A stretch of 40,027 nt of DNA, taken from assembly GCA_902782945.1 (NCBI GenBank), contig CACZOU010000076.1, forward strand, positions 1 to 40,027, given 5' to 3'. Position 1 is the first letter of the stretch. Each line of letters opens with the position of its first letter. A program made the translations under genes and the position numbers. Positions 33,465 through 35,646 of this stretch are shown here, piece by piece. Below the pieces are notes generated by a model. The model was not told where the DNA came from. It was given only the letters and a program-made list of their open reading frames with translations, and did no database searches. This DNA is from an uncultured Methanobacteriaceae archaeon (GTDB lineage: Archaea; Methanobacteriota; Methanobacteria; Methanobacteriales; Methanobacteriaceae).

Positions 33465-34235
33465 ATGAGATATATTGTAATGTCTGGTACATCTGATTCA
33501 AGTAAAGTTATAAATTTTCTAAGTGAAGATGAAAATAATTATATCCTCGCCACAACAGTTACTGATTATGGATCAAAAATAGCAAAATCTGCAGGAGCAA
33601 CTGAAGTTATATCAAAAGCATTACGAAAAGAAGATTTTATTAACGTAATAAAAGAAAAAAATATAGACACACTCATTGATGCTACTCACCCTTTTGCAGC
33701 AGTAGCAACTGAAACCGCTATTGAAAGTGCTGAAGAAACAGGAATAAACTATATTAGATATGAAAGAGCATCAACAATTCTACCAGAGTCTGATTTAATA
33801 AAAAAAGTTTCAACATTCCCTGAAGGAGCTTTAAAAGCAAAAGAATTATTAGGTGATAATGAAAAACTTATGCATCTAGCAGGAGTTATGACCTTACCAG
33901 AAATAGTCAAAGAAGTAGACCCAAAACAAATAATTGTAAGAGTACTTCCAAACACGTTCAGTATTTCAAAAACCCAGAAAACAGGTATTCCTGCAAGTAA
34001 TATAGTTGCTATGCAAGGAACATTTTCCAAAGAATTTAACATGAGTTTAATGAAAGAATTCAATGTTAAAGCTGTAATTACTAAAGAAAGTGGTGAAAGT
34101 GGTGGTTCTGAGGAAAAAATTAATGCTGCAATAGAATTAGGACTTCCTGTAATACTAGTTACAAGACCTGTAGTTGAGCAAATAAAGAACCATACAGTGG
34201 TTAGATCAATTGATGAATTAAAAGAAGTTATTTAA
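33465..34235 (+). CDS. cbiJ: Cobalt-precorrin-6A reductase
   Basis: A 256-residue CbiJ/CobK protein: 'IVMSGTSDSSKVINFL' (nucleotide loop), 'VTDYGSKIAKSAGA', the signature 'LIDATHPFAAVATETAIESA', 'INYIRYERAS', 'VRVLPNTFSI' and 'ITKESGESGGSEEKINAAIELGLPVILVTRP'. It reduces cobalt-precorrin-6A with NAD(P)H in the anaerobic cobalamin route. cbiC of the same pathway lies 25 kb away at 7570. The ATG is preceded by GGAGG. It is transcribed alone, ending in a T-rich stretch at 34254-34262. Confidence 0.93.
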   Translation: MRYIVMSGTSDSSKVINFLSEDENNYILATTVTDYGSKIAKSAGATEVISKALRKEDFINVIKEKNIDTLIDATHPFAAVATETAIESAEETGINYIRYERASTILPESDLIKKVSTFPEGALKAKELLGDNEKLMHLAGVMTLPEIVKEVDPKQIIVRVLPNTFSISKTQKTGIPASNIVAMQGTFSKEFNMSLMKEFNVKAVITKESGESGGSEEKINAAIELGLPVILVTRPVVEQIKNHTVVRSIDELKEVI

Positions 34236-34311: not shown

Positions 34312-34372
34312 TAGCCTCAGATCGCCCATCATTCATCATCATATCAGAGCTCATAGGGTTCATCATAGGCTA
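34312..34372 (-). ncRNA. Archaeal C/D box guide sRNA
   Basis: Reading the minus strand: the stem arm UAGCC, box C AUGAUGA (34366-34360), a 12-base guide ACCCUAUGAGCU, box D' CUGA (34347-34344), spacer UAUG, box C' AUGAUGA (34339-34333), a 12-base guide AUGAUGGGCGAU, box D CUGA (34320-34317), and the stem arm GGCUA. All four boxes are perfect and both C-D spacings are 12 bases, the spacing set by the Nop5-fibrillarin particle. The terminal 5-base stem is fully paired. The element is also less AT-rich than its surroundings. By the N+5 rule both guides would direct 2'-O-methylation of a C. It lies just downstream of PAN on the same strand. A TATATAA element near 34407-34413 could drive it, or it may be processed from PAN mRNA. 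Confidence 0.85.
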
Positions 34373-34419: not shown

Positions 34420-35646
34420 TTAGTTATACATTACTCCTGCTTCTTTAGATAACTCATTTCTGTTTTTATTTTTGTTCATCACTTTATCTAATGCATCTTC
34501 AAAGTTTTTAGATGATACACTGTGATGATTTTCTCTTATTGCGAACATACCTGCTTCTGTACATATTGATTTAAGGTCTGCTCCTGATGCCGTTTTTGCT
34601 TCAGTTGCAATTTTATTAAGATCAACATCAGAATCTAAGGACATGTTTTTGGTGTGTATTTTAAGAATTTCAAGTTTTCCTTCTTCATCAGGAACTGGAA
34701 CTTCTATAATACGATCAAATCTTCCAGGTCTTACTAATGCTGGGTCTAATATATCAGGCCTATTAGTTGCTGCAATTATACCAACATTTCCACGGGATTC
34801 AAATCCATCCATTTCTGCTAGTAATTGCATGAGTGTTCTTTGAACTTCACGATCTCCACTTGTAGATCCTTGTAATCTTTTAGCTGCTATAGCATCAATT
34901 TCATCTATAAATATTATGGCTGGTGCTTTTTCTTTAGCTAATTCAAATACTCCTCTTACTAGACGTGATCCTTCTCCTATGTATTTTTTTACAAATTCAG
35001 ATGCTACAATTTTTATGAAAGTTGCATTTGTTTCATGTGCGACTGCTTTTGCTAGGAGAGTTTTTCCTGTACCTGGTGGACCATAGAATAATACACCTTT
35101 AGGTGGTGTAATACCAACTTCTTTGAATATTTCTGGATTTTTTAATGGTAGTTCTACTGTTTCAACAGTTTCACGTATTTGTTTTTTTAATCCACCAATG
35201 TCATCATAGCTTATATTTGGTTTTTCATCTATTTCCATTCCAGATACTAATGGATCTTTTTCGGAAGTTATAATATCAACTATGCTGAATGTTTGTTGAT
35301 TTAGTGCTACTCTTGAACCAATTTCTACTTTATCACTGTCTTTATCAGAGTATCTTAGTAAAAATGATGGTCCTGTGCTACTTTTTACTACTACTTGGTT
35401 GTTATCTAGTATTTCAGAGACAGTTGCTAGTACTAATGGTGGTGTTCTGAAACGATTTATTTCATTTTTTAATGATTTAACTTCACGGTCTAACCTGAGA
35501 TTCTCGTTTTCTAGTAATACTTTGTCTTTTTCTAATTTTCTTACTTCCCATGTTAGATTACGTTCGATTGCCTCATGTTTATCTAATATGTTTGTTATTT
35601 CACGGTCTTCTTCTTCAACTGTGTTTAAAGGTGATGATTCTTCCAT
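34420..35646 (-). CDS. pan: Proteasome-activating nucleotidase
   Basis: A 408-residue AAA+ ATPase. In order: an N-terminal coiled coil (about residues 10-65), an OB domain (about 70-130), Walker A 'GPPGTGKT' at 189-196, the pore loop 'KYIGEG', Walker B '[14 protein letters not shown]', the arginine-finger region 'LVRPGRFDR', and the C-terminal 'MYN'. That last tripeptide fits the hydrophobic-Tyr-X motif that docks into the 20S proteasome and opens its gate. It unfolds proteins for degradation. The ATG has AGGAGGT upstream. The downstream guide RNA lies 48 bases past the stop. Confidence 0.96.

Follow-up and report, generated by a model that had tools for sequence, protein, structure and literature searches.

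We studied a 61-base element on the minus strand of a 40,027-nucleotide stretch of DNA from an uncultured Methanobacteriaceae archaeon (the whole stretch is called the window here), located at positions 34312..34372, which is almost certainly an archaeal box C/D guide RNA. Judging from sequence comparisons, it is very probably a guide RNA with a tRNA-Met target plus some rRNA target. The guiding of tRNA-Met C34 is an already known task of archaeal C/D RNAs; what looks new is the strictly kept pair of guides and its reversed order in other archaea. Boxes C, D', C' and D were read in that order along the element: a 5' stem arm TAGCC (34368..34372) followed by one T, the C box ATGATGA (34360..34366), guide 1 or D' guide ACCCTATGAGCT (34348..34359), the D' box CTGA (34344..34347), a D'-C' spacer TATG (34340..34343), the C' box ATGATGA (34333..34339), guide 2 or D guide ATGATGGGCGAT (34321..34332), the D box CTGA (34317..34320) and a 3' stem arm GGCTA (34312..34316), all on the minus strand. 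A previous sequence-only reading of this DNA had described four boxes on this strand together with two guides of 12 bases, a spacer of 4 and a closing stem of 5 bp, and all these numbers hold. The element has the features of archaeal box C/D sRNAs, i.e., the boxes, two guides next to D and D', a short spacer and a target base opposite guide position 5, a position for which guide 2 has two competing sites (23S C2558 and 16S C1402). C/D sRNAs as a class contain two kink-turn motifs bound by L7Ae, Nop5 and fibrillarin, and these proteins would bind the two motifs of the present RNA.

The element lies between the stop codon (34420) of an open reading frame that we take to encode PAN, the proteasome-activating ATPase (34420..35646, minus strand), and a convergent reading frame whose 3' end faces it (33465-34235), presumably cobalt-precorrin reductase-like. 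Its GC content was 44.3%, against 14.9% and 13.2% in the flanking intergenic DNA and 29.6% in the window, in agreement with the enrichment in G and C noticed earlier. The sequence-only reading had also judged the combination of boxes very unlikely by chance, and this was borne out: the pattern RTGATGA-N9-15-CTGA-N2-12-RTGATGA-N9-15-CTGA, searched on both strands, had a single match in the whole window, at 34312..34372, and none of 300 dinucleotide-preserving shuffles of the window yielded it. That the boxes came together fortuitously in the 3' region of PAN, with no gene behind them, is scarcely conceivable in view of this result, of the conservation of the element throughout the window's class and beyond, and of a reversed-pattern control that matched only 1 of 395 genomes. 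In a covariance search, as proposed in the sequence-only reading, no Rfam family reached its gathering score on the element; at a relaxed threshold the top seven matches were archaeal C/D families and eukaryotic ones came next, the best being sR1 (E 5.6e-8, 35.5 bits versus a gathering score of 45), followed by sR2 (E 1.1e-6). ARAGORN found zero tRNA genes in the window.

Homology search with an 85-base query showed the element in 48 of 60 genomes, its own included; 47 of the 48 were from the window's genus, family, order or class, and the remaining one (G049) shares only the domain. The boxes and guides of these copies were nearly constant, with positions 2-11 of guide 1 identical in all 48 genomes, and variation was found in the flanks, the D'-C' spacer and the guide base adjoining each box. 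Boxes and at least one guide had been expected to persist in related Methanobacteriales, and both were kept in the 48 copies; the loss of boxes in close relatives, proposed as a ground for rejecting the gene, was not seen, the boxes being kept while the flanks varied. A scan of 395 genomes for positions 2-11 of guide 1 between GATGA and CTGA (the guide-1 pattern) matched 155 of them: 138 of the 150 from the window's class (families f1-f4) and 17 of the 245 others. Eleven of the 12 class genomes without a match were less than 90% complete, the exception being G028. A total of 118 copies were parsed, none failing, and removal of 10 duplicate loci left 108 (16 from outside the class and 92 from it, these retrieved from the 138 class matches), with guide 2 in 107. 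The constancy of guide 1 in this set is partly built in, as the pattern specified positions 2-11, and the 48 homology copies are free of that bias. Among the 92 class copies both the D' and D boxes read CTGA without exception, the C box was ATGATGA in 65 and GTGATGA in 27, the C' box GTGATGA in 70 and ATGATGA in 22, the D'-C' spacer had 3-7 bases, and terminal stems of at least 3 pairs (G-U allowed, one base skipped) were present in 91. Guide 2 was constant at positions 4-11 in 107 of 107 copies and at positions 2 and 3 in 106 each; positions 1 and 12 varied.

The location downstream of PAN, already pointed out in the sequence-only reading, was confirmed in the class: all 52 class loci with at least 2 kb of sequence have PAN immediately upstream in the same orientation, as do 30 of 40 with short sequence, and the gap from the PAN stop to the C box ranged from 12 to 262 bases. 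In 26 rows of non-class copies, some of them short loci, PAN appeared once (L151), encoded on the opposite strand at a distance of over 4 kb; the neighbors of two reversed copies inspected for it (L152, L153; see below) were not PAN. A TATA-like sequence, TTATATAAT, starts 48 bases ahead of the C box and was considered as part of an own promoter, but 17 same-genus copies compared by eye had no shared element at that place, and 14-16 bases separate the C box from the preceding PAN stop in eight f2 genomes. Therefore, co-transcription with PAN, the likely host transcript, is preferred. Since most archaeal C/D genes need no promoter of their own, being within longer transcripts (PMC7994747, section 8), we infer that the sRNA is processed from the PAN transcript, from whose 3' part it would be released; no link with the proteasome is claimed.

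The complement of guide 1, with one G for A, is GGCTCATAGGGT, a sequence present in five genomes (G000, G003, G014, G037 and G042) and placed inside a 109-base Rfam tRNA match with an insert in all four that were scanned (G000, G003, G014 and G042). The tRNA copy of the window genome reads ...CACGGCTCATA-GGGTATT...GGGATACCGTG..., in our reading an elongator tRNA-Met with a CAU anticodon and a putative intron after A37. The duplex of guide 1 with GGCTCATAGGGT has 11 Watson-Crick pairs and one G-U and spans the exon-intron junction, with guide position 5 (base 34352) opposite the wobble base C34, as the box+5 rule demands. Its pairing score was 11.4 of 12; when 30 tRNAs of the genome were scored along with the rRNA of G049, the runner-up site had 7.8. 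The duplex energy was -20.3 kcal/mol on the pre-tRNA versus -10.4 on the intronless CAU sequence. Because four of the pairs fall in the intron, the substrate should be the precursor tRNA. Outside the class, G252 and G356 have an intron-bearing tRNA-Met with the same site in the same register; the first guide base is G in G252, where the tRNA has C, and T in the window, where the tRNA has G, and the last base of the G252 guide is unpaired. Pairing over the exon-intron junction with C34 at position 5 was thus found in G000, G003, G014, G042, G252 and G356, and it is highly probable that elongator tRNA-Met C34 is the target of guide 1. In the predicted mechanism, guide 1 would pair with the unspliced elongator pre-tRNA-Met over its 5' splice junction and fibrillarin would methylate the 2'-O of C34 before splicing, the intron letters GGGT serving to distinguish this precursor from other tRNAs with a CAU anticodon.

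No elongator tRNA-Met was found for G048, G049, G212 and G339. In G212, 36 of 47 tRNA genes were examined and two contain CTCAT; neither was taken as elongator tRNA-Met, as they look to us like Ile2 and the initiator. The single long tRNA examined in G049 (L241) lacks CTCAT, and among the three examined in G339, L244 has the sequence GGCTCATAACAA and resembles Ile2. Pattern matches close to the guide in G049, G304, G390, G322, G172 and G288 (L176, L177, L181, L185, L194, L195) could not be recognized as tRNAs. In two copies, L087 (G048) and L016 (G024), position 12 of guide 1 is T and not A, which predicts a pre-tRNA-Met intron beginning with GGGA.

The sR-tMet RNA of Haloferax volcanii was reportedly described by Joardar et al. 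in 2011 as the C/D guide RNA for C34 of elongator pre-tRNA-Met, the same target as predicted here; in contrast to it, the present element is a standard double guide whose second, rRNA-type guide is strictly conserved. A C/D RNP is responsible for Cm34 in archaeal tRNA-Met (PMC6601510, PMC4033218), and the tRNA-Met guides treated in PMC2584109 pair partly with the intron and hence act before splicing. The 18 archaeal candidates of that paper, including Pyrococcus sR49, share the tRNA target and the partial pairing with the intron; the passages devoted to them leave partner guides and their order undiscussed, and Methanobacteriales may already be listed. The Rfam family sR41 (RF01126) has in its consensus GAGCCCUAUGAGcg ahead of CUGA, i.e., the same guide in the same register, whereas its other guide is unrelated and the window element scores 22.8 bits against its gathering score of 54. 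Although the tRNA-Met guide is in the Rfam sR41 consensus, PMC2584109 assigns tRNA-Met to sR49 (Rfam RF01303) and 23S G1950 to sR41; apparently the two sources number these RNAs differently. Human SNORD97 / SCARNA97 also guides 2'-O-methylation of elongator tRNA-Met C34 (PMC6601510); it is eukaryotic and intron-encoded, unlike the archaeal element, and the likeness is one of function. The element provides a tRNA-Met wobble guide candidate for a whole methanogen class, at a locus unmarked by any Rfam model.

The 16S and 23S genes of the window genome were not found, and the targets of guide 2 were assessed on the rRNA of relatives; 16S was not found in G000, G014, G037, G042 and G048 (four of them single-contig genomes), where rRNA seems to be withheld or missing. 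In G049, G172 and G212 the best 16S/23S site was in the 23S A-loop hairpin, on its 3' side (UUCGCCCAUU/CA), with guide position 5 (base 34325) opposite C2558 (E. coli numbers) in the A-loop stem. Guide positions 2-11 pair with it by 10 of 10 Watson-Crick pairs in G172 and G212, a 10-base length in line with what Yang et al. 2016 announce in their title. Four members of the window's class were read at this site. The fit was intact in two of the window's genus (G003, G008), whose A-loop letters give nine Watson-Crick pairs and one G-U, and broken in two of one other genus (G070, G076; L213, L214), where the closing pair is U-A (UUCACCC) and guide position 4 is mismatched, guide 2 being unchanged despite the broken pair. 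The A-loop also reads UUCACCC in G052, G175 and G195 of family f8, presumably Thermococcaceae, and that of G252 reads N. Shuffled guide 2 cores attained the 23S score in 4 of 400 trials in G212, 4 of 400 in G172 and 10 of 400 in G049, a rate of 1-2.5% that is suggestive only, and the A-loop letters are common also in archaea without the guide RNA, so that they lend no support by covariation. In section 7 of PMC4644070, where U2552 and C2556 served to anchor our 23S numbering, these two are the A-loop predictions and C2558 is absent.

A second site was found in 16S rRNA, where guide positions 3-11 pair with one G-U and position 2 is mismatched. It is identical in the six relatives' 16S read, those of G304 and G288 directly from the sequence since the site is outside their scored 16S ends, and the duplex energy was -17.4 versus -16.8 on 23S. 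The target base there, which we number C1402, carries a 2'-O-methyl group in E. coli, yeast, human and plants. This opens the alternative that guide 2 acts on C1402 at the P-site and not on 23S: besides the energy and the constancy just given, this is the sole good site in G070 and G076, and Pyrococcus abyssi has Cm1369 as the counterpart of C1402 (PMC11542601). The letters of the guide argue otherwise. Position 2, A in 106 of 107 copies, faces a C of 16S, a mismatch in all six, and position 8, U in 107 of 107, faces a G for which C would suit better, while both A2 and U8 fit 23S; the conserved G10 fits 16S better, being no more than a G-U on most 23S read. In addition, the main text of PMC4644070 names A1408 and G1494 as helix 44 sites and does not contain "1402", and the sites reported as detected in Haloarcula are all in 23S (PMC11542601). 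Because the conserved letters A2 and U8 make 23S the better fit, it is preferred over 16S, and a guide 2 directed to 16S instead of 23S seems unlikely. U8 and G10 are letters able to pair at both rRNA sites (with A or G, and with U or C, respectively). We thus predict that guide 2 would direct 2'-O-methylation of rRNA, most likely at 23S C2558, a target held with moderate confidence, and perhaps also at 16S C1402, which is compatible with the former and tentatively proposed. With two plausible ribosomal sites for one guide, methylation mapping would provide a direct test.

Guide 2 could instead be an orphan or a chaperone, the tRNA guide alone being of importance. Such a state has a precedent in Pyrobaculum, where PMC7994747 describes the second guide of tRNA-targeting sRNAs as having no target, and it agrees with the shuffled cores that attain the 23S score and with the broken 23S pair of G070 and G076. 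An orphan should drift, however, and positions 2-11 have hardly changed in the 107 copies, which makes this explanation very unlikely. The predicted rRNA-directed guide, if active, would be an exception to that Pyrobaculum statement. Of the 33 tRNA genes detected, 30 were scored against guide 2 and offered no target, the best score being 6.2. In G339, position 3 of guide 2 is changed and neither the 23S nor the 16S site gives a good fit.

The same two guides were found in opposite order, i.e., with the rRNA-type guide first, in 15 genomes outside the window's class; in all 92 class copies parsed the tRNA guide is first. Twelve of these genomes were found by guide 1 alone and three (L155, L158, L161) only by a scan naming both guides, whose 12 stretches correspond to Hydrothermarchaeota archaeon (4), Hydrothermarchaeum (1), Pyrohabitans (2), Euryarchaeota archaeon (3) and archaeon (2). 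The 17 outside genomes with the guide-1 pattern comprised the 12 with the reversed pair, G356 with another partner, G332 (L121) with a single half and no second C/D half seen, and G175, G195 and G325, which were left out. In three reversed copies (L130, L131 and L132, families f87 and f79) the D'-C' linker, usually a short spacer, has about 20 bases and by eye can fold as a hairpin, so that both RNA ends resemble closed stems. Opening a ring at one or the other of these stems would give the two guide orders, and we regard circular permutation of one ancestral gene as the probable origin of both; the same two orders would also result if the gene had been duplicated in tandem and the outer halves lost. 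Archaeal C/D RNAs occur as circles (PMC3695527, PMC7994747), and a ligase of M. thermautotrophicus circularizes C/D RNAs in vitro (PMC9014305).

The two orders might also have arisen by separate fusion of guide modules. Guide modules are recombined or mobilized between sRNA genes (PMC4644070), G356 (L134) retains guide 1 joined to an unrelated AT-rich guide, which shows that the partnership can be broken, and the genomic neighbors differ, PAN adjoining none of the reversed copies seen. Against this, 13 outside genomes were picked up with guide 1 alone and parsed, and 12 of them have the same partner; the linker of L130, L131 and L132 can fold like a joined terminal stem. We consider separate fusion rather improbable. 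The two gene orders can serve as a natural test of the idea that permuted genes are left behind by circular C/D RNAs or by tandem copies. The fullest version of the proposal is that one 61-base RNA serves three bases, tRNA-Met C34, 23S C2558 (A-loop) and 16S C1402 (P-site), a single guide covering both rRNA bases, and that the pair predates the split of Methanobacteria and Hydrothermarchaeota and was kept through circular permutation; as a whole it is speculative and seems unlikely. A literature search gave no report of these two guides as a pair or of an order that is reversed from one phylum to another, a prior listing being possible. A parallel is that of Methanopyrus sR39/sR119/sR88, for which the authors of PMC4644070 propose a circular rearrangement, giving sR88, that moved the two guides: that case is within one species and one guide has decayed, whereas here the orders differ between lineages and both guides are intact.
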